A stretch of 64,000 nucleotides of DNA from the NCBI GenBank assembly GCA_035236585.1, contig CP141127.1:74009495-74073494 (forward strand), written 5' to 3'. Made by a program: the position numbers and the translations under genes. Origin of the DNA: Warburgia ugandensis. Lineage: Eukaryota > Streptophyta > Magnoliopsida > Canellales > Canellaceae. The notes below the pieces were generated by a model that saw nothing but the letters and a program-made list of their open reading frames with translations, ran no database searches and was not told the DNA's origin. This document shows positions 17,305 to 44,642 of the stretch, piece by piece; position 1 is the stretch's first letter, and each line of letters begins with the position of its first letter.

Positions 17305-17370
17305 CCCCCCCCCCCCCCCCCCCCATTTTTTTTTCAAAATAATATATATATATATATATATATATATTAT
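17305..17370. repeat. C20 tract, T9 tract and (AT)n at the left border of the viral array
   Basis: Twenty consecutive C residues (17,305-17,324) are followed by a T run and then an (AT) microsatellite at about 17,341-17,369. Viral sequence starts at once at 17,371. A second (TA)n tract closes the array at 44,598. Confidence 0.9.
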
Positions 17371-17499
17371 GGTCCATTCATAGATTGAATTAGCCATGTA
17401 TTCATTCTAGATGTGAACATCATTTTCCTCAATTAAAACATCCGCTAGAGTTAGTCTTTTGTAATAAAACCTATTTAGTATCCTAGGGTCTCTTTCGAT
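17371..17499 (-). pseudogene. Inverted coat-protein fragment at the array's left edge
   Basis: The complement matches the coat-protein segment of copy 1 at about 19,720-19,815, including the words ttaattgaggaaaatgatgt and gctaattcaatctatgaatgg. It is joined directly to plus-strand leader at about 17,500. It marks the outermost viral sequence next to the (AT)n tract. Confidence 0.85.
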
Positions 17500-17984
17500 G
17501 CACTATATGTATTTCTGCCTTCTTACAAATGGTATCAGAGCCAATTTTTGACTAAAAGCATGGGTTAGTAGTTTAGAACTGCAATGAATAGGGGTTGATT
17601 TATTTTTATTTCCATCAGTCATGGCATGTTTTTATGTTTTCCACTTTTATGCTTCTTGTTTGGCTCATCACAATGGCACTTGATCAATCTGTTCCACTAT
17701 ACTTGTTGTCTTATGGATCGACACCCAAGTCATGTTGGCCTGTTCCTGTTGCAGTGAGTGCGTAGGGGTTTTGCTGTAAGTCATTGACAGTCGAGTAAGA
17801 TAGTTAATTTTGGTGGAACAGAAAGGTCTTGATCCCTTTTGTATATCCGTATGCCATTAACAGTCATGTAAAGTGCTTAGAAATAAAATTGCTTAATTTC
17901 ATGCTAGTACTGATAGAAATAAATCTAGATAAACTATTTTTGTTGCCTGTTCTAAGCTATTAACTCTGCTATTCTAGTCATATC
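17500..17984 (+). promoter_or_regulatory. Viral leader of copy 1 with tRNA-Met primer-binding site
   Basis: TGGTATCAGAGCC at 17,530-17,542 is the canonical minus-strand primer site complementary to the 3' end of initiator tRNA-Met, used by all Caulimoviridae. It is followed by about 440 nt of leader before the MP ATG at 17,985. The core promoter that should precede it is missing here, because the join to the inverted coat-protein piece removed it. Confidence 0.85.
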
Positions 17985-19000
17985 ATGAATATGAATGACA
18001 ATATGCATGTTAAAAATACAAGTATGATAGAAAATCCTACTGATATTGAATCTCTATACAGATGGAAAATTCCTAATTTGAAACCTAAGGAGGTTTATAA
18101 TATAGGAAAAATTGACTTTTCATCAACAAAGATCATAAAAAACATGGAACAAACAATTAGTCTTGATAATACTGAAAAAATTGTCAACTTATTTTCAGAA
18201 AAGGACTTAAAACCTTATCTTAATTCTGATAAGTACAAGTTTATTCATGTTGGACTAATTGAAATTGGATTCAAACCATTGACATTAAATTGTCTTAATG
18301 CTTCAATCTTAGTGGTTCTTAGGGATGCCAGATGCCTAGACTAGGCACTCTCTTTGATGGGAGTGTTACAAAATAGTCTCCATCATGGACTAGTATATGT
18401 TAATGTCTTCCCTAATTTAATCTATCCTTGTCAGATCCTAATATCTTTGATGCATTAAGTCTTTATATCAAGACTCATGGCTATAATTTCAAATCTAGAT
18501 CTAAGACAATAGCTCTACATATAAGATTCAATTCAAAGTCCTCCCTACTCTAGTTACTAAAGCCAGACAAAAATCTCCAAAAGACAAGACTGTTTTAATA
18601 GAAACTAACATTTTGTCCTCTGACATTGTGGTTAATAGAACTCAGAAATGGGATGAAATCAACTTCCCATAGTCTTGATAGTTAATATAAGTTGTTTCTC
18701 TAAGACAAATTATCGATCAGAATCCTTATCAAATAATCCAAACAAAAGATGGTGATGTAGAGATCAGGTTTAATACTAGAAGATCTTTTAGATTACCTAA
18801 GCTTACTTCCTGTCCTTCCAGATCATCCAGATTCTCTATTGACAATAATAAACTAGAGTCAAGTTCAATAGAGGAACATAGAATTTTAGAAAATAATGTT
18901 GTTCATCTGGTCTACAAAAGATCGTAGGGTAATAATCCTACTCTGTCATAAATGGACATCAATATCTGATTTTATGGATTTTAGCCCTAGAAGTAAGGTC
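17985..19000 (+). pseudogene. Copy 1 movement protein (N-terminal part of ORF1)
   Basis: An open stretch of 119 codons from MNMNDN contains YRWKIPNLKPKEVYNIGKID and later KPLTLNCLNASILVVLRDAR, typical of caulimovirid 30K-type MPs that form tubules at plasmodesmata. After a stop at 18,342-18,344 the homology continues in shifted frames to about 19,000, with a small deletion relative to copy 4. This copy differs from copies 2-4 at many positions (for example MNMNDNMHVKN here, MAMNDNVKN in copy 3), so it comes from a distinct viral variant. The right limit is approximate, as MP and coat are parts of one polyprotein. Confidence 0.8.
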
Positions 19001-20058
19001 AAGGAAAGTAATAAGTGATTAATTTGAATTAGAAAAACACATGGAGTTTAAAAATTGGTACTTCACAAACTGTAAAGAAGACTTACAGTTTTATAAGGAA
19101 GAATTTTATAAATATCTTAATAAAACTCAAACTCCTAGATATTTTATGCCCTAGTTCCTCGAAACATACTTAAGTAATGAACTTAACACAATCAGACAAT
19201 GGGAGTCTATTGAAAGAGATAAGATTTCTTCTATTTTCCCTCCTACAAATACTCTGAAGATGACTATAGATGATAGAATCCTTGAATTCGCAACAAATTC
19301 TAAAATTATTAATTCTCAAGCAATATCATTCTTGAAAATATTAATAAAACAAAATAACTATATTAATCTATTTCTCCATGTTGTAGGAGAAAAAATGATC
19401 AAAATTGAAGAAGGGATAAATAAATCCTAGATCATATTAATGAAGTAAGAAGGAGAACAGAACAGAAAGAAGTTTTAACTTCTGATAAGATCAAACCATC
19501 GATTAAACCTCCTCCTGAAATTAAAAACTTCAAAATGGAAAATGACACCAAAGAAATTATCCAAACAATTAAGGATAAATTAGGGAATCTAAACCTTAAT
19601 ACTCTTTCAGGAAATGCATTAGTGATAGAAATAGAAGAAGAAAACATTAGTAGTGAAGATATCTCTAAAGGAGAAATTCTCCAAATTCAAAACCAATTCT
19701 CTTAGATTAATAAAATTGAAAGAGACTCCAGGAGACTAGATACATTTTATTACAAAAAACCAACTCGAACAGATGTGTTAATTGAGGAAAATGATGTTCA
19801 TATCCAGAATGAATATAGGGCTAATTCAATCTATGAATGGAACATAGATGGAATGACAGATAATCAATTTTTTTAAATGCTGCACAAACTTTTGATGTTT
19901 CCAGCTATCTGTAAGCAAAAAGGAAATATAGACAAAAATATTTCCCTAATGATCATCACTGGGTTTACCGAAAACCTTAAAGGATGGTGGATAATTGAAT
20001 CTCTCCTACTCAACAAGATGAAATTCTTAATACAGTGAAAATGGAACCTCATACAAAT
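19001..20058 (+). pseudogene. Copy 1 coat-protein region, C-terminal part deleted
   Basis: The homology to the copy 2 coat region includes acidic and lysine-rich helical stretches, and NEYRANSIYEWNIDGMTDNQ is recognisable at about 19,808-19,867. Near 20,058 the sequence jumps from the equivalent of about 30,280 in copy 2 to the equivalent of about 31,503. This loses some 1.2 kb, including the zinc knuckle. Multiple stops are present. Confidence 0.75.
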
Positions 20059-21978
20059 CACTTCCCAAAAATGGTACATTAATATAACCATTATGGTTGG
20101 AACAAAATGGTACACTCAGACCTTCTAGCCCTTATTGATAGTGGTGCAAATATTAGCTGTATCTAGGTAGTTTTGGTTCCAACAAAATATTTTGAGAAAA
20201 CATCTCAAAGCTTGACTTCAACAAGTAATAATAGACTAAAGATAAATTACAAGTTAAATAATTGTATGGTATGCAATAATGGAATATGTAATCCTACTCC
20301 TTTCCTTTTAGTTAAGGATTTGCATCGCCATGTTATTCTTGGAACACCTTTCCTACATAATATTATGCCCATTGATAAAATTGATCAAACTAGAATATAT
20401 TTTTCCAAAGAAGGAAAACAATTCTCTTTTAAATTTCTAACAGATCCAAAATCACATTTGTTAAATGAAGCTACCAGAATTCTTCTTAAAGAACAATAGA
20501 TAAATTTTATAAAAGAAGAAATTGCTTATAAAGATGTGTCTAATAATCTCTAAGATAAAACCTGTCAGTCTAAGGTTAAGAATTTGCTTATCATTTTTCT
20601 TGAAAATTTTTGTAATGATCTTCCTAATGCCTTCTAGGATAGGAAAGTCCATATGGTTAGCCTTCCATACATTGAATCATTCAATGAAGAATAGATTTTG
20701 ACCAAGGCTAGACCAACTCAAATGAGTTCCCAATGCATTGAATTATGTAAAAATGAAATTAGTGATCTGGTTAATAAAAGATTAATTAAGACCACTTCAT
20801 CTCCGTGGAGTTGCACAGCCTTTTATGTTATCAAGAGGCAAAGAAAGAAAGAGAAAAGCTTAAGCTAGTAATAAACTACAAAACACTCATTAGAGTCCTC
20901 AAATGGATAAGGTATCCAATCCCTAATAAAAGGGATCTTCTAAACAGATTGTGAGGGGCAGTAATCTTCTCAAAATTTACCTCAAATCAGGTTATTGGCA
21001 TATTCAAATACGAGAAAGTGATAGATACAAAACTACTTTCACAGTTCCATTTGGACAATATGAATAGAATGTTATGCCATTTGGAATAAAAGGTCCTCCC
21101 TCAGAATTCTAGAAAATTTTGAATGATATTTTCTATCCTTATGGACAATTCATCATCACTTATATTGATGATGTTTTGATTTTCTCTAGGTCGATTAATC
21201 AGTATTTCAAACACTTATAAATATTTAAGTGGTCGGTCAAGAAAAATGGTATTGTTCTTTCAGCTCTAAAAATGAAGCTTTTTAATAAGAAAGTTAGATT
21301 TTTAGGACATAATATCTTTCAGGGAAGAATAGTTCTAATCCAAAGAAGTATCAAATTCACCTTGAAATTCCCTGATGAAATTCTTGACAATAAACAGCTT
21401 CAAAGATTTTTGAAATCTCTTAATTATATTGTTGATTATTACCATGGTCTTACTAATGACACTGCAATCCTATTTATAGACTCAGAAAAAATGGTAAGCC
21501 ATGGACTAAAGAACATACCAACATGGTAAGAAGAATAAAATCTAAAGTCAAGACTTTACCATGCTTAAACCTTGCTAATAATGAATGTTTTAAGATTGTT
21601 GAAACTGATGCCTTAGTTATTGGTTATGGAGGCATTTTAAAATAGAAAAATCCCTCTTCTAATAAAGAATAACTTGTTAGATTTACTTTTGGTAAGTGGA
21701 ATGATACTCAGAAGAAATATTCAACAATTAAAAAGGAAATGCTTTCTATTGTTAAACGTATTTCAAAATTTCAAGATAATTTATTAAATAAAAATTTCCT
21801 TTTAAGAATTGATTGTAGTGCAGCCAAACAAATAATAGAAAATGATGTCAAGAATATTTTTTCTCTACAAATTTTTGCAGGATGGCAAGCTCAATTATCT
21901 GGTTTTTATTTTGATATTCAATACATCAAGGGAGAATATAACTATCTTCCTGATTATTTTACACGTGAGTTTTTATAG
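20059..21978 (+). pseudogene. Copy 1 protease, RT and RNase H
   Basis: The retropepsin-type active site reads ALIDSGANISCI near 20,130, so the catalytic DSG is kept. ILGTPFLHNI follows near 20,340. The RT shows YIDDVLIF near 21,165, with the catalytic Asp pair intact. RNase H shows the ETDA (21,601), KKEML (21,735) and PDYFT (21,950) blocks carrying its acidic residues. ORF1 ends at the stop 21,976-21,978. There are numerous stops and frameshifts between blocks, so no functional polyprotein is possible. Confidence 0.85.
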
Positions 21979-21983
21979 GGATC

Positions 21984-24900
21984 ATGAGTAGCTCTGGATG
22001 AAGAGAATGGACTACCCCAGGTAATACCTGAGGTAGAGGTAGAGGTAGGGGTCATGGTAATATCCGACTTGCAAAGGCAAGCAGACAATATTTGTTGATG
22101 AATATCCAGAATTAACATAAAAAAATCTTTCAAAAGCACTTCTTTGCTTGGGTAATATCCCTCTCACTAATAATGAGGAAATTCCTTGACAATAATTTAC
22201 TCCTCAAAAAACAAATAAGGAGACTATGCTAATGACAGTAGAAAATTATATGTTGAAAAATCATACAGACTGCATCTTTTATCTCAATATTAGAGATCCC
22301 AAATGGGATGACACTTCTGACCTGTGAGAAATTGTAGAAAGATGTATGCAAAAGAATAATATGTACCCACTCTAAGCTGGCAGAAGTCAATATCTTTTGA
22401 AGAAATTACTCGAAGAAATCAATCAATGGAAATTAGCCATGTTTATAATACCTTTCAATCTATTATAAATTTTAGCAAGATCATGATTAATAAGGTCCTA
22501 TCTCCCCAAGAATGGGATATCAATCCAAATCAATATAAATGGATTGAGGGGAAACAAGGTAAAAAATATCCCTACAATTAGGGGGATTATATTGATTCCA
22601 TGACTCTAGTAATGTATCTAGAGAATAATATAAAGAAATACTCATGGTTTCTTAAAATTAATCCCAAAATAATACAATGAGATATTCCTTCATGGTTTTA
22701 CCACTACTGGCAAAAATTTAGCCCCACTCTGAAAATATTGCCAGAGAAGATCAAGGAGCTATATAATATTTAGGTGAAATGTGCACCTAAAATTAATAAT
22801 ATTCCAGGAAAAGGCCTAACTATAAGTCATTGTAAATTAACATAGTTCACAAATTTGAAATTCCCTGGATTTGGAAATGGTCCATTGTTATGTCAAAGCA
22901 TGAATTAAACATCCAAGACTTGAAAAAAATTTACTTTGTCAAATGGTGGACAAAGTTTGATAATGAGGGCAAGACCCATGAAAATGAAAATATCATCGGA
23001 CACAATAAAGCTCTCAGGAATAATATGCCAATTGCTTGATAAGTGTATAATTTTTGCAAAAGAACCACCCAATTAGTACATGTGTTACAACTTATAGCAT
23101 TAGATTAGGACTTTTAGACCAAAATTCATAACACATGCATTTTTTACTCACTGAAGCAAAAGTTGGTTATTTTGTAGGTTTAGAAGTTAATCCAAGGTAA
23201 GTGTGTGATTAATCAAGTTTTTCTCATATTTAAGAAGGAATTTTTACTTTTTGTAGGAAGTAAGATGTTGATCCAGCGACTGAGATCGATCAGGATGAAA
23301 TTGAAGATCAAGATCGAAAGATTGAGTCAAAACCTTAAATTTATCACTTCAATGTAAACCAAACACCAAGATCATCTTATGGACCAGCAATGGATGAGAT
23401 TCAAGTAGCTAAAGATGGCCAACATGGGCCCATGAAGTAAGCCATGTATTTTCACCACCTTTGCATGGAAACCACTTAAGCCACATTAGCCAAATAAGCC
23501 ATGAAAGAAAGTGGTAAGCTAAGGAATTCAAGCCAAACCATACAAGCCATTCAAGCCAAGGGTTGAAGCTAAGAAAAGAAGGCAAGGAAGCCTCCTAAGC
23601 CAGCCATGAAGCTTTCAAAGTAAGTCATCTAAGCCATCAAGCTAAGCTAAATGGAAGACTAGGATTAGAAGAGATTTAAGAGAATTAACCATGAGATTTT
23701 AAGGGATATTTTGAAGATGATTAAGGGAAATCTTATTAGGATAATTAACATATGAACCAATAGGATGAGAGCCTTAAAATTTTGATGTTTTTCCCACTTT
23801 TTGCCACGTTTTTATCACTTTTCACCTCATCATTAAGACCACCACGAGTTTGACATTTTATTCAAGAGTCCTACCATTCCATAACACTTCCACCTTCCTA
23901 AGCTCCCTTCCTAGCCATCCAACCAATCTCCACTTCCTAGCAAACCACTTAGCCAATCAATTTTTCCCATGTCACCCCAGTTTCTCTCTAAAAGAAAAGA
24001 CACATATATCCTTTTCAAAATTAGAAATCAGCCAGCCCATACTTCTTATCTCTCTATTATGTCATGTTTATGACATCATCTTGCTAATTTATCTTTCACC
24101 CAACCTTTCTTGTTCAATACCTTATCCCTAGGGACACTTTCCTTATGTTTTCTTCCCTTCCTAAGTTAAGAAACCACTCATCTATATATAGCCTAATAGT
24201 CCATACGAATTTTCTGAGTAGAGGTGTGTGACACACCTTGAAATCAAGCTTTCCTTTGGTTTTATTTGCTGCTGGACTTTGGAATATTTTTGGTGCTTTT
24301 CTTCCTTTGGTCTTCTTTTTATTCTCTTGCTTATTTGTTCTCCAATTCAGGTTAGTAACTTAGATGTTTTACTTTTGTTCCATTGCTTTAAGTTTTCATT
24401 GTTTTGCTCCTTAGAATTCATGCTACTTTCCAGCCCTTAATCTCTTTCTTCTCCACTCCATTCCATAAGTTTTTCTTTGTTATTACATCAAGATTCAAGT
24501 TATTTATTCTCTTTTAGTGACAACCATGATAAAAGCGAGCTTAAATCCTTGATTTTCCCACTTGAATTCCATGTTTTTTACCCTCTTTTTCTCTTAGTTT
24601 AAGGCTATTTTTCCTTAGTTAGTTCACCCACTTAGCCTCTATTTTTCTCAAATTCCTTGCTGAATTTTCTTTGCATATCATTATACTTTAGAGTTTCCGA
24701 ATTAGATTCGAATGTTCTTGTTGTTTAGATAGGATTTGAGGCTTTAGAAAAGTACTCAAATTCTAAAAAATTTGAATAGTTTTATGCTGATAATTTGATG
24801 TAAATTGATATGATTTGGTAAAGTTCTTTGGGAATTCTTGTCATGGATTATTTATTTCATCAATGTACTTGAGATCTGGGCTATTTTCTTGCGTAAAATT

Positions 24901-26155
24901 TGTGGTTTCATTAGCTTTCTAATGCAAGACTTATTGATTGTTTTTAAGTACCAAAATCTGGAAATTAGTTTTTCCTTAATTTTGTGCTTTAATTCTAGCC
25001 ATCAAAACATGTTATTTTCTTGAATACTTAGATACCCATTTATATTTTCATGTTGCTTATTAGATGCCATAGTTAGTTTGCATAGTAACTCTCAGTAGTT
25101 GCATTAAATTTTACCATCATTAAGGCTCCAGAATCATGCACAAAGTCCATAAACTATGTGTAACTCTCTAAATCCCGTTCCTTTTAGATTCTTGGTTAAT
25201 TTGATTACTTAATTTAGTTTTATTAGTAGTTAATTATTTTAATTTTATTTTAGGTGTAGAAAGTTTCCTTTTTGAATTTTAGAAAGTTCCATCATTAGGA
25301 AGTTTTAGGATGTAAGAGGTCAAAATCTCTTTAATTGTAGTTTTCATTCACATGCATGTTTCTAATTTTTTCTTAAAGTTAGTTAGATCTCATTATTTAA
25401 TTATTTTTTAGTTTAGTGTTACAAATTTTTCTAAATTAATTTTAGAAATTTCTAACTTTAGAGAGTTTCTTATTCTAGTTTAGGAAAGTTTTAATTTTAG
25501 AAAGTGCATGTTTTAGGAAAAAAATTCATTTTGCATGTTTCTTGTTTTTTCTTAGTTTCCATTTCTTATTTTTACTTTAATTTTATGTTTTAATTTTCAT
25601 TCTTAATTTAGGTAAAAAAAAAATCACTTAAACTTTGGCTAGGTTAGATAGTTTAAAGTAGAAACCACTAACATCACAATAGTTCACTCCTCGTGGGATG
25701 GACCTCGCTTGTGTAAGAATACTATATTGATTCATGCACTTGGGAGTTTTAATTAAAACAAAAACATTGTCAAATCATCCTCCTCCATATGAGAAGTTAA
25801 GAAGATGCTTTAGTAGAAATTTTTTACAGATTTAGAAGATCAAATTTTGGTCAAATCTGTGGACCACATGAAAAACCAAATAATAGCATCTTTCAATTTC
25901 TCGTCAGTAGAATCTTCATTAGAAAAATAGAAAGACGATAAGTCACAGACAAGATTCCAAGATAATATGTCCGAAGACAATATTCTCCAAGACAGCCATG
26001 ATCCTGATGAGAATACATCATTTGAAGACTGTTGGGATGCATCTATAGTGGTCCTTTCTCAATTCATTCAGTCCAAGAATGATCGCAAAAATCTACAAGA
26101 AGAAGAAGACAAGAAGAATCTTCCACCAAGCAAATTCAAGCCAAAGTTTGCATAA
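21984..26155 (+). pseudogene. Copy 1 viral ORF2, split by a 2.7-kb insertion
   Basis: The start ATG at 21,984 lies 5 nt after the ORF1 stop, the same arrangement as in copy 2. The N-terminus has a GRGRGRGHGN box. Homology to copy 2 ORF2 runs to about 23,036 and resumes at 25,773, ending FKPKFA at 26,155 after an open stretch of 62 codons. Its function is unknown; florendovirus ORF2 has no established role. The position and the glycine/arginine box suggest a nucleic-acid-binding N-terminus, which is only inference. Stops are present throughout. Confidence 0.65.
23037..25772 (+). mobile_element. Probable solo LTR inserted into viral ORF2
   Basis: This stretch interrupts ORF2 homology. It starts TGATAAGTGTATAATTTTTG and ends AAAACATTGTCA, with short inverted ends TGA/TCA. 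Near the end, ctcctcgtgggatggacctc and catgcacttgggagttttaa resemble 3' ends of Tat/Ogre-lineage gypsy LTRs. A TATATATA box lies at 24,183-24,190. No coding region is seen. The expected 5-bp target duplication is not evident, so the edges may be a few bases off. It postdates the viral integration. Confidence 0.5.
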
Positions 26156-26182
26156 CCATGGCCCACCTTCATTGACAGAGTG

Positions 26183-26438
26183 TCACGCAAGCCTCGTCCC
26201 CATTTGCAGATGCGGGTTGGGGTTTGTCAGAAGTAGTTGACAGTCATGTAAGATAATCAGTATGGATTGGAAGGATGATCTCCTTCCTTTATGGGATAGC
26301 TGTAATTCATTGAAAATCATATTTTAGGATGTTAGATATAGAATAGTATAAATCCATGCTAGTTAAGATAGGGATAAATCTAGATTAATGTTGATTATTG
26401 CATGTTCTAAACTACTAGCTCTGGTTCTTCTAGCATTT
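26183..26438 (+). other. Viral leader remnant of copy 2
   Basis: It matches the copy 3 leader from about 35,883 (gcctcgtccc against gccttgtccc, followed by ttgacagtcat). The promoter and primer site are absent. ORF2 of copy 1 is joined almost directly to it, so the intergenic region was lost at this junction. Confidence 0.75.
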
Positions 26439-29290
26439 ATGGCTATGAATGATAATGTTTAAAATACTAATATGGTAGAATATCCTAGATATACTAAATC
26501 ATTGCATAATTGGACAATTCCGTTAGTTAAACCTAGAGAGGTTTACAATATAGGTCAATTTGACTTCTCGTCAACTAAGATAATAAAATAAAATGAACAA
26601 ACAATTAATTTAGATAATACAAAGAAAATTGTTAACCTGTTCTCTGAGAAGGATCTCATACCATATCTTAATGCAGATAAATAAAAGTTTATACATGTTG
26701 GTTTAATCCAAATAGGGTCTCAACAAGGCAGAGAATTTCCTTTATGTCAATAACGACAACAATCATGCAAGGAATCTCCTTTATGTCACTGTTCAAGGGA
26801 ATCTCCTTTTCTTTTCCTTTTCTTTTTGTCATTTTCATATCAGCTTTAGTCTTTATGTCAATTAGTCTCTGTAATTATTGAGTCCAATAATGTAATGGAT
26901 TCCAGACCAATATTGTCGTATTCTTCCACAATATTCTAGAATTGCTTTGCCGAAGGGGGAATTTCCCTCATAACACAGTTCCTTTCATTTTATTTTTATC
27001 TTGGATATTCTGAGATAAAATGGTCATGGAGGCATCCTAGTAATCCTCACAATTGCCTTCGTCATTGGGATCTTGACTATCTTGGAAGATATTATCTTCA
27101 AATATTGCTTCTGTGGATTTTGCAAATGATGATTCCACCGAAGTGATTTTAAAAGAATGCATGACCTAGTTCTTCATGTAGTCTATGAACTTGACAATAA
27201 TTTCTCCTTTTGAATCTGCTGGATATTTCCTTTAAAGCATTTTCTTGATTTCTTCAATTGATGCAAAAGATTGTTTGACAAGAGCATTCTCCCAAACAGC
27301 TTTATTATGCTGCATAACTATTCTGATTTCTATGACCTTGTTATCAATATCAAACTTTGTCCACCATTTGACAATGTAAATTCCTTTGAGCATTTGAATA
27401 TTAAGCTCATCTAGTTCAATAATATGGACCATTTCCAGATCCAAGGAATATCAAATTTGACAAAGAATATTAATTCACATTGAACAGTTATTAATTAGTC
27501 ATTAGGAATATTATTAATTTTAGGTGCATATTCCACCCATTTATTATAAAGCACCTTGAGCTTATTTGGTAATATTGCCAAATTTGGACCAAATTTCTTC
27601 CACCAATAGTAAAACCATGGATGGATATCCCCTAATATTACTGCGGGGTTAATTCTTATGAACCATGAATGTTTCCTCAAATCATTTTCGAGGTACATTA
27701 CATATTCCATTGAACTGATAAAATCCAACCAATTATAGGGATATCTTGAGCCCTTAGCTTCAATCCGTTTATATTGACGTGGATTAATATCCCATTCCTA
27801 AGGACACAAGACCTTATTAATAAGGATTTTCTAAAATTGATAACTAATTTGTCATGATTATGAAAGTGGCTTATTTCCACTACTTTCATTTCTTTGAGGA
27901 ATTTCTCCATAAGAAATTGGCTTCTCCCAACATGAGGAGGATATCTATGACTTTGCATTTGTCAAAAGGCAATGTCCTATGGATTGTTAGGATTATATCC
28001 TATTAAGATATCCTTCTTTTCAAGATGTATTATTACATCTCTATATTCACTTTAGAGATATTGCTATGCTGTCATTGTTAACACCTCTTTTGTAGATTTC
28101 TGCACTATAAATTGTTGTCTTGGTAATTCCTCATTATTTGAGGATTGTGATTAGCTATTACCTGCCTGATGGATATTACCCAATGTAATTAATTGTGGTT
28201 TTGGCTTTTCCCATGGCCATTGGCCAACTTGTTTTCCTTACCAACCTTGGATATTACCATGACCACGGCTTCTTCCTCTCCCATGGGTATTACTCGGGGT
28301 GATCCATCCATCTGATTTACTCATGAACCCTACAAAATTCCAAGTTAAATAATCTAGAAGGGAATTATATTCTCCCTTGATGTATTCAATATCAAAATCA
28401 AATATAGATAATTCTGCTTGCCATCCTACAAAGATTTGTCATGAAACAATATTTTTCACATCTTTCTCAATACAAATAAATAGAAGTTTATACATGTTGG
28501 TTTAATCCAAATATGGTTTAAACCTCTGACCTTAAATTGTCTTAATGCTTCAATTTTAGTAGACCTGAGGGATGCCAGTTGTTTAGGTTGGGCACCTTCA
28601 TTAATGGGAGTTCTCTAGACTAGCCTCTATCATGGTCCAGTCCACATTAATGTCTTTCCTAATTTCTGTTTATCACTGTTAGATCCTAATATTCTTGATG
28701 CTCTTAGTCTTATATTAAGACTCACGAATATAATTTTAAGACTGGATCTGAAATAATAACTCTCACTTATAGAATCTAATTCAAGGTTCTTCTAACACTG
28801 GTTACTAAAGCTAGACAAAAATCTCCAAAGAATATGATAGTTCCACTAGAAACCAACCTTCTATCTTCCAATATTGTGGTAAATAGAACCCTAAAATGGG
28901 ATGAGATAAATTTCCCTCAGTCTTGGCAGTTAATTGAGGCTGTTCTACTTAGATAAACAATAGATCAGAATCTTAATCAGATAATACAAACTAAGGATGG
29001 AGATGTTGAGATTACATTTGATAATAGAAGATCTTTTAGATTATCGTGGATCACTTCTTGTTCCTCCAGATCATTTAGACTTTCTGTTGATAATAAACCC
29101 AACTCAAGTTCAATAGAAGAACTTAGAATTTCATACAACAATGTTGTTCATCCAGTCTACAAGAAACCACAGGATAATAATCCTACTCTATCAAAGATGG
29201 ATTTCAATATTTGATGCTTATGAATTTTAGCCCCTGAAGTAAGCTTAGAAAAATAAAAAGCAATGAATTAGAATTAGAAAAACATAAAAA
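26439..29290 (+). pseudogene. Copy 2 movement protein, split by an inverted viral insert
   Basis: The ATG at 26,439 (MAMNDNV) is followed by an in-frame stop six codons later, then recognisable MP homology to 26,719. The MP resumes at about 28,475 after a 1.75-kb insert and continues to roughly 29,290, with the KPLTLNCLNASILV block near 28,525. A direct duplication of about 43 bp flanks the insert. Other stops and shifts are present. The MP/coat border is approximate. Confidence 0.8.
26722..28470 (-). pseudogene. Foldback insert: intergenic piece plus inverted ORF2 and RNase H end
   Basis: 26,722-26,922 is intergenic viral DNA in plus orientation, matching about 34,985-35,180. It turns at once into minus-strand ORF2 sequence that reads from the RNase H end (near 28,460) through the ORF2 start (GRGRSRGHGN near 28,260) to about 26,923. 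Open pieces lie at 27,232-27,444, 27,495-27,728 and 27,698-27,958. The plus piece and the inverted piece come from adjacent parts of the viral circle, so the turn is a foldback. Confidence 0.8.
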
Positions 29291-35421: not shown

Positions 35422-35610
35422 TGAGATCTATTGTTTTAGACCCAGTCTTGAAATTATATTTGTGAGTCTTAATATAAAGACTAAGAGCATCAAATTGTTA
35501 GGATCTAGCAGTGATAACCTAAAATCAAGAAAGACATTAATGTAGACCGGATTGTGATAGGGGAGAGTTTGTAGAACTCCCATTAAGGAAGGTGCCCAGT
35601 CTAAACATCT
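35422..35610 (-). pseudogene. Inverted movement-protein fragment inside the leader
   Basis: The minus strand encodes an MP piece with CLDWAPSLMGVLQT and VYINVFLDF, matching copy 4 at about 43,135-43,320. It sits at the primer-site position and is flanked by a direct duplication of about 82 bp (35,343-35,423 and 35,611-35,693). Confidence 0.85.
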
Positions 35611-35682
35611 ATCATATCTATGCATGAGAGTTCCATAAGCTCCGTAAGTATATTTCATTTTAAAATTGCTTCTGCTTCTGAA

Positions 35683-35695
35683 TGGTATTAGAGCC
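35683..35695 (+). promoter_or_regulatory. tRNA-Met primer-binding site of copy 3
   Basis: TGGTATTAGAGCC differs by one base from the canonical site at 17,530. It starts the copy 3 unit. Confidence 0.8.
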
Positions 35696-36139
35696 AATGA
35701 TTGGCTAAGAAGTTTACGTTAGTAGTTTAGAATTGCATGATTATGGATTAATCTATTTTTATGTCCATCTACTAGCATGCTTTTATATTATTCTATGTTT
35801 ATCTGCATTATGATCTGATAAGTCACATTGGCATTTGGTTATTTTGTTTATTCTATGGTTGTCTTATGGAACAACACCAAAGTCGCACAAGCCTTGTCCC
35901 CGTTTGCGAGATGCACATTGGGGTTTGCCAGAAGTCATTAACAATGGTGTAAGATAATAGATAGGGATTGACAGGATGATTTTGTTCCTTTATGGGAAAG
36001 CTGTAATAAGTTGACAGTCATATTTTAGGATGTTAGATATAGAATAGTATAAATCCATGCTGGTTAAGATCGGGATAAATCTAGATTAATGTTGATTGTT
36101 GCATGTTCTAGACTACTAGCTCTGGTTCTTTTAGCATTT

Positions 36140-37050
36140 ATGGCTATGAATGATAATGTTAAAAATACCAATATGGTAGAATATCCTATATATACTGAAT
36201 CATTGTATAATTGGACAATTCCATTAGTTAAACCTAAAGAGGTTTACAATATAGGTAAATTTGACTTCTCATCAACTAAGATAATAAAACAAACTGAACA
36301 AACAATCAATTTAGATAATACAAAGAAAATTGTTAAGGGTCTCAGACCATATCTTAATACAGATAAATACAAGTTTATGCATGTTGGTTTAATCCAAATA
36401 GGGTCTAAACCTCTGACCTTAAATTGTCTTAATGCTTCAATTTTAGCAATCCTTAGGGATGCTACATGTTTATACTGGGCACCTTCCTTAATGGAAGTTC
36501 TACAGACTAGCCTCTAACCTTAAACTGTCAGATCCTAATATTCTTGATGCTCTTAGTCTTTATATTAAGACTCATTGATATAATTTCAAGACTAGGTCTA
36601 AAACAATAGCTCTCACTTATAGAATCCAATTCAAGGTTCTTCCAACTCTGGTTACTAAATCCAAACAAAAATCTCCAAAGAATAAGATAGTTCTAATAGA
36701 GACCAACCTTTTGGTATTCCGATATTGTAATTAATAGAACCCTAAAATGGGATGAGATAAATTTCCCTCAATCTTGGCAGTTAACCGAGGCTATTCCACC
36801 TAAACAAATAAAAATCAGAATATTGATCAGATAATACAAATAGAGGATGGAGATGTCAAGATTAGATTTGATAATAGGAGATCTTTTAGATCACTGAGGA
36901 TCACTTCTTGTTCCTCTAGATCATCTAGATTTTATGTTAATAATAACCCCGAGTCAAGTTCAATAGAAGAACTTAGAATTTTAGACAACAATGTTGTTCT
37001 AACCTGTATGAAACCACAAGATAATAATCTTACTCCATCAGAGATGGATT
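36140..37050 (+). pseudogene. Copy 3 movement protein
   Basis: The ATG at 36,140 (MAMNDNVKN) is preferred over the upstream in-frame ATG at 36,089, because copies 2 and 4 share this start context. The open stretch reaches 36,517 with NWTIPLVKPKEVYNIGKFDF and KPLTLNCLNASILAILRDAT. A short deletion removes residues after KKIV compared with copy 1, and a second removes sequence after 36,515. The rest is broken by stops. Confidence 0.8.
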
Positions 37051-38391
37051 TCAATATTTGATTTTTATGGATTTTAGCCCCAAAAGTAAGCTTAGAAAAA
37101 TAATAATCGATGAATTTGAATTAGAAAAGCATAAAGAGTTCAAAAGCTGGTACTTCAATAATTTAAAAAAGAAAAGAAAAGAAGTACAACAATATAAAAA
37201 CCAATTCTATGAATATCTTAATAAAACTGAAACAATAGAATTCTTTGATCCCTAGTTGCTAAAGACCTATCTAAGTAATGAAATTAATACACTTAGACAA
37301 TGGAGAACACCTTAAGGAGAAGAAATATTTTTGGAATTTCCACCTACCCAACCAATGGAAATAGTTGGAAAAGAGGATGGTTTAGAAATGGCGGCATTCA
37401 CTAAAATTGGGCATATTCACTCATTAAATGATCTGGCTAGAATTATAAAACAAAATAATTATACAAAATTTGATTCTTCAAATTCTTGGAGAAATAGTAA
37501 TAAAAATTGAAGATGGAATTAATAAAATTTTGGATCATACAAGAACAGTTAAAAAACAAAAACAAGAAGAAGAAGAAGAAGAAGAAGAAGAAGAAATTAC
37601 TTCAAACAAAATTGAACCCTCAATTAAACTAGCACCTAAAATAAGAAGATTCAAAATGGAAAATGATATAGATGAAATCCTAAGAATAATCAAAGACAAA
37701 ATGTTAGATCTCAAGCTTTCAACTTTGTCAAGATAGGAATCTAAAATGTAAATGGATCCTAATATGATTAGTCAACAAGATAATATTCCTGAAGATATTA
37801 GTGAAGGAGAGGTTCTCCAAATCCAAAACCAATTTTCTCAAATCAATAAAACTAAAAGAGATTTGAAAAGAATTGGCAGGTACTATTATAAAAGACCTAC
37901 ACCTACAGATGTACTAATAGAAGAAAATGATGTTCTAATTCAGAACTAATATAGGGCCAATTCAATTTACAAATGGAATATAGATGGCATGACAGACAAT
38001 CAGATTTACCAAATGGGACATAGGTTTATAATGTATTCAATTATCTATAAATAAAGAGGAAATACAGACAAAAACATTGCACTGATGGTAATAGCTGGAT
38101 TTATAGGAAAACTAAAAGGATGGTGGGATAATGTAATGACCCCTTCTCAAAGAGGTGAAATTCTTAATAAGGTCAAAGTTGAACCTAATACAAGTCAACA
38201 CTAAGAAAATGCAGTTTAAACTTTAGTCTGTACAATAATAGAACATTTTATAGGTAGCATACAAACCCAATTTGAAAATTCTAGAGCACTTCTTCAAAAT
38301 CTTAAGTGTCCTTTCCTCACTCATTTTTGCTAGTATAAGGGTATGTTCCTTGCCAGAGTCCTTCACATGCATGATGTAGGACTTCCTTATC
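37051..38391 (+). pseudogene. Copy 3 coat protein, N-terminal two-thirds
   Basis: Open pieces lie at 37,058-37,255, 37,470-37,736 and 37,752-37,949, separated by stops. Content is acidic and lysine-rich, and MDPNMISQQDNIPEDISEGE is shared with copy 4. A GAA microsatellite at 37,566-37,595 expands a glutamate run (about ten Glu) that is short or absent in copies 2 and 4. The copy ends abruptly at 38,391, before the zinc knuckle. Confidence 0.8.
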
Positions 38392-38416
38392 TGAATTTGA
38401 ATTAGAAAAGCATAAA
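38392..38416 (+). other. 25-bp templated filler at a deletion junction
   Basis: This block is identical over 25 bp to 37,111-37,135 in the same copy's coat gene. It sits between coat-protein and RNase H sequences that are about 2.4 kb apart in the viral genome. Confidence 0.85.
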
Positions 38417-38795
38417 CAACTCTAAAAATTTCTTGGATCACTAAATTATATTTCTAATTATTATCATGACTTAGCCAAGAATACTGCAATTATGTTTAAT
38501 AGGCTTAGGAAGAATGCTAAACCTTGGACCGAAGAACATACCAAAATGGTTGGGAAAATCAAAGCTAGAGTAAAATCTCTGCCATGTTTAAACTTAGCTA
38601 ATGTTGAATGGTTCAAAATAGTTGAAACATATGCCTCTGATATCGGATATGGAGGTATTCTTAAATAGAGAAATCCTTCTTCTAATAAGGAAGAATTAGT
38701 CAGATTTACTCCTAGTAAATGGAATGATACTCAGAAAAAATACTCTACTATTAAAAAGGAAATGCTTTCAATTGTAAAATGCATCTCCAAATTCC
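38417..38795 (+). pseudogene. Copy 3 RNase H fragment
   Basis: It matches copy 2 at about 32,845-33,222, including the KKEMLSIVKCISKF block. It ends at aattcc, where the orientation of the array flips. Confidence 0.8.
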
Positions 38796-38928
38796 TCATT
38801 ATTTGAGGATTGTGGCTAGCTATTACCTATCTAAGGGATATTACCCAATGTAATTAATTGTGGTTTTGGCTTTTCCCATTGCCATTGGCCAACTTGTTTT
38901 CCTTTCCAATCTTGGGTTTAGCATTCTT
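38790..38928 (-). pseudogene. Inverted ORF2 N-terminal fragment at the array centre
   Basis: The complement matches copy 2 ORF2 near 33,497-33,630. It shares aattcc (38,790-38,795) with the plus-strand RNase H fragment, a 6-bp microhomology at the inversion point. On its other side it joins RNase H sequence of copy 4 by a deletion of roughly 0.55 kb. Confidence 0.8.
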
Positions 38929-40330
38929 CCTGGGCCTATTAAACAGAATTGCAGTATCCTTGGCTAAGTCATGATAATAATCAAAAATATAATTTAGTGA
39001 TCCAAGAAATCATTGGAGTTGTTTATTATCAGTAATTTCATCAGAAAATTTAGAAGCAAATTATATACTTCTCTGAATTGGAACTATTCTTCCCTAAAAT
39101 ATATTATGACCTAAAAATCTTCCTTCTTCCAAGAAGAGTTTCATTTGTGGAGCAAACAGAACCAACCCATTCTTCTAATTTAACCACTTGAATATTTCAA
39201 GATGCTTAAAATGCTAATCTATTGATCTAGAGAATTTTAGCATAACATCAATGTATGATATAATAAACTGTCCATATGGATTAAAGATTTCATTCATAAT
39301 CCTCTAGAATTTAGAGGGGGCATTTTTTAAGCCAAATGGCATGACATTCCATTCATACTGTCCAAAAGGAATTGAAAATTTCATTTTGTATCTATCTGAT
39401 TCATGGATTTGAATATGTCAGTAGCCTAATTTCAAATCAAATTTTGAGAATATATCTGCTCCTTGCAATCTATTCAAAAGATCCCTCTTATTAGGAATCG
39501 GATATCTAATCCATCTAAGGACTCTATTGAGAGGTTTATAGTTTATTACTAATCTTGGCTTGTCTCTTTCTTGTTCCACAACTTTATTAACATAAAAGCC
39601 AGTACAACTCCACGATGGTGAAGAGTTTCTGATTAATTTTTTATTACTAAGGTCATTAATTTCATTTTTACATAGTTCAATATATGCATAGCTCATTTGA
39701 GCTGGCCGAGCTTCAGTAAGAATATCATCTTCTATGACTCCTTCAATATATGGAAGAGAAACACAATGAATTTTTCCATTCTAGAAAGCATTGGGAAGAT
39801 CAATACAAAGATTTTCTAAAAATGTATTAAGAACATTTTTAACTTTATTTTGAAAATTTTTATCCTCAATATTATTTGGAACATCTCTATAGGCTATTTC
39901 TTCCTTAATAAAGTTTATTTGTTGGTCTTTGAGAAGAATTCTTCTATCTTCATTTAATAGATGCATCTTAGGATCTGTTAGAAATTTAAAAGAAAATTGC
40001 CTTTCTTCTTTGGTGAAATAGATTCGAGTGGTATCAATCTTATCTATTGGTATAATATTATGCAAGAATGGTGTTTCGAGTATTACATGATGGTGTGGAT
40101 CCTTTTACCAACAAGGAGGGTGTAGGAATTGCATACCATAGCATTATTAAGTTTAAAATTTATTTTCAGTCCATTATTACTTGCTGAAGTCAAACTTTGT
40201 GAAGTTTTTTCAAAATATTTCTTTGGAACCAGACCTTCTTGAATACAGCTCATATCTGCACCACTATCGACAAGAGCTATAAGGTCTTATCTGTACCATT
40301 CAATTCCAACAGCAACTGTAATATTAATAT
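38929..40330 (-). pseudogene. Copy 4 protease and RT (minus strand)
   Basis: Read on the minus strand, the protease keeps VDSGADMSC near 40,260. An ORF at 39,781-40,065 covers its C-terminal part and an ORF at 39,418-39,696 the RT fingers (INYKPLNRVLRWIRYPI). The RT active site near 39,250 reads YIDVML instead of YIDDVL, so the second catalytic Asp is lost. RNase H is present only as its first part before the deletion at 38,928. Confidence 0.85.
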
Positions 40331-42700
40331 ACCATTTTTGTGAAGTGACTTGTCTAATTAAATCAAGATATTATGGTTCAAATGCATCAGTATTAGATGA
40401 CTCTCCTAATTGAGTTGGCTTATTATTTTGTTCAAGATTTGTGACTCTTTTGTCGAGCAAACTATTTTCATTTTTTAACAAAACAATTTCTATTTGAAGA
40501 TTATTGATTTCTCTCTTTAAGTCATAGACTGAAACATTGGCAGATAGAATAGGTTTATTACCTAGTCGCTTAGTGACTTTAGACATTATGTAAACATTAT
40601 CAGTATCAACTAGTTTTTCTATGTCTGAAGAAAATATTATTTTCTAAAAGATTGTTTTTCTAAGTTCTGGGTCTTCTATTTTACCTATTATTTCAAGAAG
40701 TTCTTGTTGAGATTGAGATAAGACATTTATCGAGAGGTTATTTATCTTAACAATAGATTTTTGATAATCTGAATCTTTTTCTAGTGTACTACACTATGTA
40801 CAACATTGTTCTTTATTAGAATCAGAAGAGGAGGATTCAAAGTCTATGTTATCAGACAATTCTAATTCAGATGAATTCAATCTTATCGTGGAAAGAGATT
40901 TCTTTAATTCTTCATCTATTTTAAGTTCTTCAATTTTCTTCTTGGTCCAACATTTATTAGCAAAATGACCAAGCTTTCCACATTTATAACATTTTATCTT
41001 TTAGTTGTCTTTCTTATTATAAGATTTTCTCTTACCCTTATATTTCTCAAAAGGTTTATTTTTCCTATAAGAGTTTTTCCTATTGTTCTTATAATGTTTC
41101 ATTTTTCCCTTATTAGGAATTTTTATCTTAGGAAAATCTATAGTAAATTATTGGCAAAATTTGCCTAACTATTTCTTCTCTTTGATTCTTTCTCTTTTAA
41201 GTTGGTTTCTCAACTTAATTTCATTACACAGAGATATGCCTTCATTGACACAAGAATAAACTAATTGATCGTAAGATAATTGGTCATAGGGAATTTTCCC
41301 ATTAAATTTAGATTTCAAGTAATTTTTTACCCTAGTAGCAAACAAATAAGGAAGTCCTTTAATAAATTTCTATTTTCAATATGTTTGTCCTACATCATGC
41401 AAGTGAAGGACTCTGGCAAGGAATGCATCCTTATACCAGTGAAAATGAGTGAGGGACGGACACTTAAGATTTTGAAGAAGTGCCATAGAATGTTAAAATT
41501 GGGTTTGTAGGCTACCCGTAAAATGTTCTATTATTGTACAAACTAAAGTATAAAGTGCATCTTCTTAGTGTTGACTTATATTAGGTTCAACTTTGACCTT
41601 ATTAACAATTTCGTCTCTCTAAGAAGGGGTCATTACATTATCCCACCATCCTTTCAAATTTCCTGTGAATCTAGCTATTATCATCAGTGCAATGTTTTTT
41701 TCTGTGTTTCCTCTTTGTTTACATATAGTTGAATACATTATAAACCTATGTACCATTTGGTAAATCTAATTTTCTATTATGCCATCTATATTCCATTGGC
41801 AAATTGAATTGGCCGTATATTTGTTCTAAGTTAGAACATCATTTTCTTCTATTAGTACATCTGTAGGTGTAGGTCTTTTATAATAGTACCTGTCAATTCT
41901 TGTTGGATCTCTTTCAATTTTATTGATTTGAGAAAATTGGTTTTGGATTTGGAGAACCTCTCCTTCACTAATATCTTCAAGAATATTATCTTGTTGACTG
42001 ATCATATTAGGATCCATTTCAGTTTCATATTCCTATCCTGACAATGTTGAAAGCTTGAGTTCTGACACTTTGTCTTTGATTATTCTCAGGATTTCATCTG
42101 TATCGTTTTTCAATTTGAATCCTGTTATTTCAGGTGGTGGTTTAATTGAGGGTTCAATTTTGTTTGAAGTAATTTATTCATGTTGTTGTTTTCGTTTTTG
42201 AACTGTTCTTATATGATCCAGAATTTTATGAATTCCATCTTCAATTTTTATTACTCTTTCTCCAAGAGTTTGAAGATGCAAATTTGTATAATTATTCTCT
42301 TTTATAATTGTAGCTAGATCATTTAATAAGTGAATATGCCCAATTTTAGATAATGTGGTTGTTTTTAAAACATCCTCTTGTCCAACTATTTCCATTGGTT
42401 GTGTAGGTGGAAAATCCAAAAATATTTCTTCTCCTTCAGGTGTTCTCCATTGTCTAAGTGTATTAATTTCATTACTTAGATAGGTCTTTAGGAACCAAGG
42501 AACAAATAATTCTATTGTTTGAGTTTTATTAAGATATTCATAGAATTGGTTTTTATATTGTTGTACTTCTTCTTTTTTTTAAATTATTGAAGTACCAGCT
42601 TATGAACTCTTTATGTTTTTCTAATTCAAATTCAAATTTTATTATTTTTCTAAGCTTACTTCTGGCGATAAAATTGATAAACATCAAATATTGAAATCCA
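40331..42700 (-). pseudogene. Copy 4 coat protein (minus strand)
   Basis: Pieces at 42,174-42,419, 41,826-42,017 and 40,371-40,586 give the coat region with its coiled-coil-like end (VYDLKREINNLQIEIVLLKN). The zinc knuckle CYKCGKLGHFANKC lies at 40,950-40,991 on the complement, intact. Stops separate the pieces. Confidence 0.82.
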
Positions 42701-43646
42701 TCTTTGATGGAGTAAGATTATTATCCTGTGGTTTCTTATAGACTGGATGAACAACATTGTTGTCTAAAATTCTAAGTTCTTCTATTGAACTTGACTCTAG
42801 TTTTATCAACAAAAAATCTTGATGATCTAGAGGAACAAGAAGTGATCCTTGGTAATCTAAAAGATCTCCTTGTTATCAAATCTAATCTCAACATCTCCAT
42901 CCTCAGTTTTTATTACCTGATCAAGATTCTGATTTGTTATTTGTGTCAGTGGAACAGCCTCAATTAACTGCCAAGACTGATGGAAATTTATCTCATCCCA
43001 TTTTAGGATTCTATTAACTACAATATCAGAAGACAGAAGGTTGGCTTCTATTAGAACTATCTTATTCTTTGGAGGTTTTTGTCTGGCTTTAGTAACCAGA
43101 GTTGGAAAAACCTTGAATTGGATTCTATGGGTGAGAGCTATTGTTTCAGACCCAGTCTTGAAATTATATCCGTGAGTCTTAATATAATGACTAAGAGCAT
43201 CAAGAATATTAGGATCTAACAATGATAAACTAAATTCAAGAAAGACATTAATGTAGACCGGACTGTGATAGAGGCTAGTATGTAGAACTCCCATTAAGGA
43301 AGGTACCCAGTCTAAAATCTAATATCCCTAAGGACTGCTAAAATTGAAGCATTAAGACAATTTAAGGTCAAAGGTTTAAACCCTATTTGGATTAAATCGA
43401 CATGTATAAACTTGTATTTATCTATATTAAGATATGGTCTAAGATCCTTCTTAGATAACAAATTATATTATCTAAACTAATTACTTGTTCAATTTGTTTT
43501 ATTATCTTAGTTGACAAGAAGTCAAATTTACCTATATTGTAAACCTCTTTAGGTTTAACTAATGGAATTGTCCAATTATACAATGATTCAGTATTTGTAG
43601 GATATTGTACCATATCAGTATTTTTAACATCATCATTCATAGCCAT
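42701..43646 (-). pseudogene. Copy 4 movement protein (minus strand)
   Basis: The start MAMNDDVKN is at 43,646 within an open frame that begins at 43,694. NWTIPLVKPKEVYNIGKFDF follows. The long open piece 42,857-43,294 holds the MP core (VYINVFLEF, HGYNFKTGSETIALTHRIQF). A deletion or frameshift lies near 43,430. This is the best-preserved MP core in the window. Confidence 0.85.
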
Positions 43647-44593
43647 AAATGCTAGAGGAACCAAAGTTAGTAGTCTAGAACATGCAACAATCAACGTTAA
43701 TCTAGATTTATCCCTATCTTAACCAGCATGGATTTATACTATTCTATATCCAGCATCCTAAAATATGACTGTCAATGAATTATAGCTATCCCATAAAGGA
43801 ATAAGATCATCCTACCAATCCATACTGATTATCTTACACGACTATCAACAACTTCCGGCAAACCCCAACACGCATCTCCCAAATGGGGACAAGGCCTGCG
43901 TGACTTTGGTGTTGTTCCATGAGACAACTAGTAGAATAAACAAAATAACCAAATGCCGATGCGACTTATTAGATCATAAGATAGATAAACATAGAATAAT
44001 ATAAAAGCATAACAAAAATATATTAATCCATAATCATTGCAATTCTAAACTACTAACCCAAACTTCTTAACCGATCATTGGCTCTAATTGCAGAAGCAAT
44101 ATTAAAATGAAATATACTTATAGAGCTTATGGGACTCTCATGCGTAAATATGATAAAAGGCTATAGAGGAAGTTGAAATTTTATTACTAGAATTGGAAAG
44201 GATTGTAGAAAGGAAAGATTACAAAGGACTGACACAAGGGGGCTCAAGCAGACGATTCAAGAAAAGAACCAACCAAGTGATGTCCAAACAAACTGACTTA
44301 CAACCTATATATAAACTTCGGATCTGAACTTGAATTGGTCTAGAATCCGTTACATTAATGAAAGACACAAATTGATATAAAGACTAAAGCTAATATGAAA
44401 ATAACAAAAAGAAAAAGAAAATTTCCTTAAATAGTGATATTAAAGGAGATTTCCTGCATGATTGATGTCGTTATTGACATAAACGAGATTCTCTGCCTTG
44501 TTGAGATTGATATAAAGAGAATTTTCTGAATTATTGCTGGTCGATGTCGACTTAAAGTAGATTCTTCTTACATTATTGGAGATCTTTATCATC

Positions 44594-44597
<4 letters not shown>
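43647..44597 (-). promoter_or_regulatory. Copy 4 ORF2 tail, promoter and leader (minus strand)
   Basis: From 44,597 inward the complement shows the last codons of ORF2 (gatctccaataatg), then the intergenic region. A TTTATATATA box lies at 44,298-44,307 and a leader follows. A degenerate primer site lies at 44,080-44,092 (complement TGCAATTAGAGCC against TGGTATTAGAGCC). The outer viral end is therefore within the 3' end of ORF2. Confidence 0.75.

Positions 44598-44642
<45 letters not shown>
44598..44642. repeat. (TA)n microsatellite at the right border of the viral array
   Basis: About 22 TA units start immediately where viral sequence ends. With the (AT)n at 17,341-17,369 it brackets the array. 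Confidence 0.9.

Follow-up and report, generated by a model that had tools for sequence, protein, structure and literature searches.

A 27-kb array from two caulimovirid-like lineages in Warburgia ugandensis, bordered by AT tracts and probably captured at a microsatellite of an older retrotransposon

A 27-kb array on contig CP141127.1 of Warburgia ugandensis is a patchwork of broken copies from two related Caulimoviridae-like viruses, here called lineages L and R. It lies inside the window, the whole 64,000-nt stretch of DNA that was analysed, and an AT tract adjoins it on either side. Taken alone, an AT microsatellite as the capture target is very probable on the sequence evidence. The whole scenario, in which that microsatellite broke, viral DNA served as filler and L and R entered together, is given a probability of about 0.6. 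The features are as follows, with V for positions on the virus map.

15515..17341, minus strand: left part of a copia-like LTR retrotransposon whose 5' leader is the putative target; paralogues continue into the right flank
16078-16476, minus strand: gag piece of this left part (Retrotran_gag_2, E=3e-7)
17,342-17,367, no strand: left AT tract, a perfect (AT)13, putative remnant of the target microsatellite
17368..17499, minus strand: inverted L fragment, ~V2268-2164, 86% to 19715-19846
17500..20060, plus strand: L, tRNA-Met primer-site motif at 17530, then V1-2488, movement-protein region
20058..21989, plus strand: L, V3712-5644, protease/RT/RNase H region, past an internal deletion
22378..23012, plus strand: L, V6034-6666
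~23037..25768, no strand: nested high-copy host repeat, 2.7 kb, a later interruption of L
25769..26102, plus strand: L, V6700-6992, then ~80 bp unplaced up to the start of R
26182..28472, no single strand: R fragments V202-730 (+), V7186-7380 (+) and V7058-5489 (-)
28465..35407, plus strand: R copy R2, V672-7614, ending at the primer site
30028-30300, plus strand: R2 broken ORF, DUF7746
30349-31986, plus strand: R2 broken ORF, coat/zinc-knuckle/protease
32051-32551, plus strand: R2 broken ORF, RT
32597-33238, plus strand: R2 broken ORF, RT/RNase H
35417..35675, no single strand: scrambled R pieces V977-784 (-) and V7550-7614 (+)
35681..38795, plus strand: R copy R3, V1-2672, then V5047-5428 past a deletion
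38790..44593, minus strand: R copy R4, inverted, V5838-5713, V5156-1 and V7614-7094
44,598-44,642, no strand: right TA tract, (TA)22.5, putative other part of the target microsatellite
44643..46210, minus strand: right part, leader of the same retrotransposon (match to paralogue L072)

Viral content of the array

Between the tracts the array is viral, save the nested host repeat and two unplaced stretches (~22,066-22,377 and ~26,103-26,181). It adds up to ~0.7 genome equivalents of L and ~2.4 of R. The original prediction counted at least four viral copies, which holds: copy depth is at least 4 along ~2.4 kb of the 7.6-kb virus map, with a maximum of 5 apart from a single base at which overlapping blocks make it 6. 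Several internal joins overlap by a few bases. The nested repeat has at least 66 matches, its own counted (40 of 15158 candidates scored), with long relatives up to ~89%.

The viral unit measures ~7.6 kb on a circular map, inside the range of 7-8.5 kb, and R3 and R4 read through the map origin. At the origin, at 17530, lies TGGTATCAGAG, which we take to be a tRNA-Met primer-site motif. The same motif is quoted in the available part of PMC1899175. Elsewhere in the genome, at least three same-strand RT pairs among 150 listed RT places are spaced 7.5-7.8 kb apart.

The domains follow the order of Caulimoviridae (movement protein, coat, zinc knuckle, aspartic protease, RT, RNase H), as assembled from Pfam scans of separate array pieces. 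PF01107 was found in R4 and, below the cut-off, in L; R2 has PF22909, PF00098 (just below the cut-off), PF00077, PF00078 and PF17919/PF17917. The ~1.5 kb past RNase H (V5489-7000) has broken frames and fits in size the second of the two florendovirus ORFs, which is peculiar to that genus (45-58 kDa); three pieces taken from it gave no Pfam match. No named caulimovirid reference was among the matches listed (120 of 332 in one search), and a viral-contig search returned one weak locus and no genus. An LTR retrotransposon identity for the array was rejected, since copies cross the origin without LTRs, movement and coat domains are present, and no integrase domain turned up in the portion of the array that was scanned.

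Borders and the retrotransposon around them

Viral homology had been claimed to border both AT tracts directly, and its edges at 17,368 and ~44,593 do adjoin (AT)13 and (TA)22. On the left, where the outermost viral piece is the 132-bp inverted fragment, similarity starts at 17,368 if lineage L is the reference and at 17,373 if lineage R is. On the right, BLAST similarity extends to 44,598, and TTTTTA stands between the last clear match by eye and the TA run. The window holds 14 AT runs of at least 12 bp, both border tracts counted and none of them within the array. By chance, two borders would both come to lie 5 bp or less from such a run with a probability of ~1.4e-4, or 1.1e-5 if only runs of at least 26 bp are counted. 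No continuation of the virus past the tracts was seen: the window self-comparison gave no viral match beyond them, and in a subset of 22 of the flank ORFs Pfam recognised either transposon-type domains or no domain. No target-site duplication was seen by eye around the array.

The region 16480-17300 matches at least 39 other genome places at 76-82% (40 of 420 candidates scored), and in the right flank the minus strand has a tRNA-Met primer-site motif at 45906. In the best paralogue, on C8 (L072/L003), left-flank homology runs to 17306 and right-flank homology resumes from 44666 (72% over 44666-44764, 80% over 45129-46210), with 26 bases between. The join holds only TTTTTTATAAT, which is not an AT run. 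Among 11 paralogues, none matches the viral pieces, eight have an AT run of at least 9 bp (9-25 bp) at the join, and one has (AC)53. Right-flank homology of >40 bp follows the left flank in seven of the 11 and is lacking in four. These empty sites are paralogues, ~80% identical, rather than the orthologous locus of a related species.

Because the paralogue flanks lie close together, carry no viral match and mostly bear AT, the target microsatellite probably belonged to the older copia-like retrotransposon, in its 5' leader. The proposal of an AT target is thereby strengthened. Its suggested check, for an AT repeat at the empty site of a related genome or allele, was applied here to paralogues and came out well for most of them but not for the best one: (TA)n stands at both borders, and an AT run stands at eight of the 11 paralogous empty sites, L072 not among them. 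The present tracts need not equal the original halves, as tract lengths change fast.

Two tnp2 transposase arms (10-15 kb and 51-57 kb), presumably CACTA-type, lie around the array in opposite orientation and are 72-74% alike over long stretches. A palindrome of these arms was rejected as the cause of a break, as they lie outside the target retrotransposon.

Two lineages and the order of events

L and R2 differ by codon position in the ratio 93:77:219 (p=5e-21), R2 and R4 in the ratio 88:71:84 (p=0.38), and R2 and R3 in the ratio 11:11:10 (one piece). Because their differences fall mostly at third positions, L and R are two virus lineages which diverged as living viruses. The differences among R copies are even across positions, which implies that these copies were almost the same when captured and that their decay since then has gone on without coding constraint; flat codon positions are also expected from early duplication of one R copy in place. 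R-R distances are 0.098-0.115, or ~5-6% decay per copy. Assuming 0.7-1.3e-8 changes per site per year, this decay is roughly 4-9 million years old.

Long matches above 80% to an R piece were confined to the array's three R copies (40 of 363 candidates scored); in the same scoring the next-best relatives reach 79% on C4, and one 63-bp piece reaches 92% on C10. L matches at least 11 other genome places at 80-84%, and R4 at 75% (40 of 420 scored). Conserved RT/RNase H sites are altered at 5 of 30 in R4, 5 of 27 in R3 and 5 of 45 in L, a similarity read from five altered sites each.

A capture in one step is likely, not proven: it fits because the L/R join has no AT run, L and R are similarly decayed, and no long R match above 80% was found elsewhere among the candidates scored. 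The AT microsatellite in the retrotransposon's 5' leader would have broken, and viral DNA would have served as filler in the repair. At least two related caulimovirids, L and R, would have supplied this filler as several molecules or fragments; presumed end joining with short microhomologies would have linked these in both orientations, and the outer ends would have been joined to the AT stubs on either side. After capture the near-identical R copies would have decayed neutrally, and the 2.7-kb host repeat would have inserted into L later. We infer that L and R entered jointly. Confidence in the whole scenario is lowered by the unplaced ~80 bp between L and R, which may include host DNA.

Stepwise accretion is rather unlikely, and it is the best of the alternatives. 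In this reading L would have entered the AT tract first, and R would have come later at the L/AT edge or multiplied in place. It would suit the separateness of the lineages, the unplaced ~80 bp, and the indel density (5.7-24.9 per kb in L-R alignments, 2.0-10.0 in R-R alignments), which may make L older. Clustered RT copies are also common in this genome: 15 neighbour pairs closer than 15 kb among 150 listed places, 12 of them on opposite strands, where ~0.3 were expected. Accretion is countered by the join near 26,180, which lacks an AT run, and by the conserved sites, a similar proportion of which is altered in each lineage. A single capture fits, as the earlier claim has it; that the block was pre-assembled is a hypothesis, since accretion of R at the L edge or early duplication in place would look much alike.

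Borders were also called at 27 of the 29 RT loci outside the window (L031 and L035 omitted), as similarity cover, which may extend across shared AT runs. Four loci showed no border, and the others gave 23. Seven of the 23 have an AT run no more than 20 bp away (0.5% at random), nine are at most 30 bases from the tRNA-Met primer site, and 12 have no AT run of at least 12 bp inside 100 bp. The virus directly abuts an AT run at L018, L021, L027, L036 and L038, and by eye at L023 and L032. Exact joins of primer site to AT occur at least three times in the genome, against 0 in the reversed control.

This repeated border pattern, and the ~10% distance between R copies, which makes collapse of identical repeats unlikely, leave little probability for an assembly artefact fusing unrelated viral copies at a collapsed microsatellite, even though long AT tracts are difficult to assemble and the array was read from assembled sequence. 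Slighter still is the chance that two AT loci, each with its own virus end, were united by deletion or rearrangement: the tracts are unequal in length with no sequence link between them, but the flanks are one retrotransposon leader in paralogue order and orientation, 26 bases apart in L072. Equally improbable is a viral or post-insertion origin of the tracts, as an expanded TATA region or otherwise; many viral borders in the genome carry AT runs, yet the array has none inside, paralogues without viral match have the microsatellite, and at the corresponding map place (34,887 region) R2 lacks such a run, for which reason the right TA run was rejected as an expanded viral TATA box.

For the preferred capture at the microsatellite, the meeting of viral ends with AT tracts could be explained by the virus's DNA discontinuity together with AT fragility. 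This joint reading is tentative, at somewhat less than even odds: a linear reverse-transcription product would often be captured, its free end at the tRNA-Met primer site, with TAT of TGGTAT microhomologous to (TA)n, and here two co-infecting lineages would have met in one repair.

Relation to known endogenous pararetroviruses

The association of pararetroviruses with AT repeats had been cited as known, correctly (PMC526188, PMC4241990). Florendoviruses, in the available part of Geering et al. 2014 (PMC4241990), have units of 7.2-8.5 kb, (TA)n at borders and TE-rich surroundings; (TA)n predates insertion at orthologous empty Oryza sites, and compound two-component insertions occur, with a 42-kb peach locus of 5.36 copies. 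The array resembles them in unit size, MP-CP-zinc finger-AP-RT-RH order (in the array ~1.5 kb without recognised domain comes next), TE-rich setting, (TA)n borders and compound structure. It differs in that its empty sites are paralogous copies of one retrotransposon, and its compound joins two RT-bearing lineages rather than components A and B.

For RTBV-like sequences in rice, the available part of Kunii et al. 2004 (PMC526188) reports AT repeats at 93% of ends, clustering of ends in the intergenic region and at the discontinuity, and rearranged segments, all with likenesses here, and leaves undecided whether the AT repeat preceded or accompanied the virus. Virus and host differ, and the paralogues here help to tell the timing of the AT repeat. 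LycEPRV of tomato has truncated, inverted and duplicated pieces and junctions adjoining transposable elements; the array shares these features and the intergenic tRNA-Met motif, whereas the available part of PMC1899175 describes neither an AT microsatellite target nor an empty site.

Published work already describes association with AT, arrays that are rearranged, and ends in this viral region; the array is a well-resolved compound example in which both edges and virus-free sister repeats can be read. For an ancient capture into a member of a repeat family, the empty sites are readable in one genome, with no related species needed. The same genome, with at least 150 RT places listed, could test how AT fragility and the viral DNA discontinuity act jointly in capture. 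A joint entry of L and R would mean that a single germ-line cell contained both virus lineages.

Borders and content of the array

The array lies between a perfect (AT)13 at 17,342-17,367 and a perfect (TA)22.5 at 44,598-44,642, and comparison of the window with itself found the DNA between these tracts to be for the most part a patchwork of its own repeats. The original prediction of a viral block bracketed by AT tracts was borne out by this comparison, in which similarity ends at both. On the left, viral similarity starts from 17,368-17,373, beginning with a 132-bp inverted fragment, and on the right the last clear viral match is at about 44,593. None of the window's 14 AT runs of at least 12 bp falls within the array, and the chance of both borders lying within 5 bp of such a run is about 1.4e-4.

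Individual open pieces have matches in the families of viral movement protein, caulimovirid coat, DUF7588, DUF7746, retroviral protease, RT and RNase H, and a zinc knuckle match falls just below the cut-off. Pieces of two related virus lineages, L and R (with copies R2, R3 and R4), were placed on V, a virus map used for coordinates only, with a unit of about 7.6 kb and its origin at the tRNA-Met primer-site motif.

Pieces of lineages L and R in the array, in V coordinates
V2268-2164, inverted: lineage L
V1-2488: lineage L
V3712-5644: lineage L
V6034-6666: lineage L, then a 2.7-kb host repeat
V6700-6992: lineage L, after the host repeat
V202-730, plus: lineage R
V7186-7380, plus: lineage R
V7058-5489, minus: lineage R
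V672-7614, plus: lineage R, copy R2
V977-784, minus: lineage R
V7550-7614, plus: lineage R
V1-2672 and V5047-5428, plus: lineage R, copy R3
V5838-5713, minus: lineage R
V5156-1 and V7614-7094, minus: lineage R, copy R4

Together these make about 0.7 genome equivalents of L and 2.4 of R, with a depth of up to 5; about 310 bp (22,066-22,377) and about 80 bp at the L/R join (26,103-26,181) found no place on V. At several joins the two parents overlap by a few bases that agree with either. The repeat nested in lineage L (23,037-25,768) belongs to the host and has a very high copy number (40 of 15158 candidates scored). In the viral leader, sequence of some 80 bp at about V40-116 is an inverted repeat (73-76%) of another at about V359-438, which looks like a leader hairpin.

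Viral-leader inverted-repeat stretches
35720-36118
26338-26417
43666-43747

Divergence and decay of the two lineages

Differences between R copies are spread evenly over codon positions, at 88:71:84 for R2 and R4 (p=0.38, three open pieces of R2) and 11:11:10 for R2 and R3 (one piece), as would be expected of DNA without coding constraint. For R2 and L the counts are 93:77:219 (p=5e-21), a skew of the kind expected if viruses diverged while replicating. Distances are 0.098-0.115 within R, 0.24-0.26 between L and R, and 0.136 over 132 bp between the inverted L fragment and the L body. With about 0.10 taken off as decay, the distance between L and R at capture was perhaps 14%, so by the 80% rule quoted in PMC4241990 the two may have been strains and not separate species.

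Conservation was judged at sites at least 95% conserved in an alignment of 120 listed homologues, with R2 as the query. Altered conserved codons number 5/30 in R4, 5/27 in R3, 5/45 in L and 0/45 in the query itself, and codons read as stops 5/117, 2/127 and 3/213 in R4, R3 and L. Because the altered-site shares are similar, L is not clearly older than R, but the numbers are small, and indels are denser in L-R alignments, at 5.7-24.9 per kb, than in R-R alignments, at 2.0-10.0 per kb.

Relatives and empty sites in the host genome

The genome is 1.12 Gb in 14 contigs, with the window at C2:74,009,495-74,073,494. The RT/RNase H piece has at least 150 places, the window's own among them (150 of 10,311 candidates scored), and these 150 include 15 neighbouring RT pairs less than 15 kb apart, 12 of them opposite-strand, where about 0.3 pairs would be expected. 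An R piece matches the two other R copies of the array at 87-88%; outside it, the best long match is 79% (contig C4) and one 63-bp piece reaches 92% (C10), among 40 of 363 candidates scored. For an L piece, at least 11 further places match at 80-84%, while its match to R4 is 75% (40 of 420 scored). Three other RT loci with extensions (L016, L025, L026) run from the late part of the virus map straight into an inverted second copy, like the surroundings of R3 and R4. Two RT places 41 kb apart, C13:49972840 and 50013817, have identical scores and stops, and are probably a segmental duplication of a single viral locus. Plant-type pararetrovirus-like RT and protease also occur in protein records named Corynebacterium and Chryseobacterium (P0082, P0138), perhaps plant contamination in bacterial assemblies.

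The left flank belongs to a repeat: 16,480-17,300 recurs at 76-82% in at least 39 further places (with 40 of 420 candidates scored), and the right flank is likewise repeated (28 of 28 scored). The array sits in the leader of this repeat, since it lies between two of its minus-strand features.

Features of the flanking repeat
16,078-16,476, minus: copia-type gag piece
45,906, minus: tRNA-Met motif

At the C8 paralogue (L072 and L003), left-flank homology runs to 17,306 and right-flank homology from 44,666, with a gap of 26 bases. Eleven of the 39 paralogues were compared at the target site, and none of the 11 matched the window's viral pieces. Eight of the 11 have an AT run of 9-25 bp no more than about 60 bp from where the left flank ends; L072 has only TTTTTTATAAT at the microsatellite place, L074 has its sole AT run about 190 bp further on, and in L082 (AC)53 stands where the leader microsatellite would be. 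Right-flank homology (>40 bp) further on was found in six of the 11 (L073, L075, L077, L079, L080, L081) plus L072, and not in L074, L076, L078 or L082. The AT target had been proposed together with an empty-site check, which was run here on paralogues rather than an orthologue; its outcome favours an AT-rich target.

Around the array region, tnp2 transposase elements lie in opposite orientation at 1-15485 and 49985-58100, 72-74% alike over long stretches; they also carry Transpos_assoc, DUF4216 and DUF4218 pieces and short subterminal repeats.

Borders at other viral loci and earlier work

Borders were looked for in the 4.5 kb or so that follow RT/RNase H at 27 of 29 other RT loci that were fetched, and detected at 23. 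An AT run of at least 12 bp lies within 5 bp of 6/23 borders, 20 bp of 7/23 and 100 bp of 11/23, against 0.34%, 0.53% and 1.6% of 52,383 non-viral control positions beyond the borders. As 12/23 have no such run within 100 bp, AT is frequent at borders but not required. Nine of the 23 (L018, L020, L021, L027, L028, L033, L036, L038, L042) are no more than 30 bases from the start of the primer site, where a uniform spread would give 0.8% over the whole map or about 1.4% over the part reachable by the survey. In five of these nine (L018, L021, L027, L036, L038) the virus ends at or beside the primer site and passes straight into (TA)n; the AT run at L021 is 11 bp. Within the array, the R2 end and the L start are at or near the primer site; the two outer ends are away from it, so the array's own borders give no support to the primer-site idea.

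Geering et al. 2014 (PMC4241990) report florendovirus borders at TA(n), which empty Oryza sites show to have been there before the virus inserted, and place 14-51% of loci no further than 1 kb from TA(n). They also describe compound insertions and, in peach, a 42-kb array, and name end joining as a possible route. Kunii et al. 2004 (PMC526188) give AT repeats at 93% of ends, with ends clustered at the intergenic region and at a discontinuity, and a 2023 review (PMC10377300) sums up the AT-repeat association and related findings. Among the papers listed by the literature search, nothing plainly links primer-site ends to TA microhomology, and novelty is not claimed. The array is a genuine case of an already known event, unusually well resolved, at a new locus and with paralogous empty sites and two lineages.
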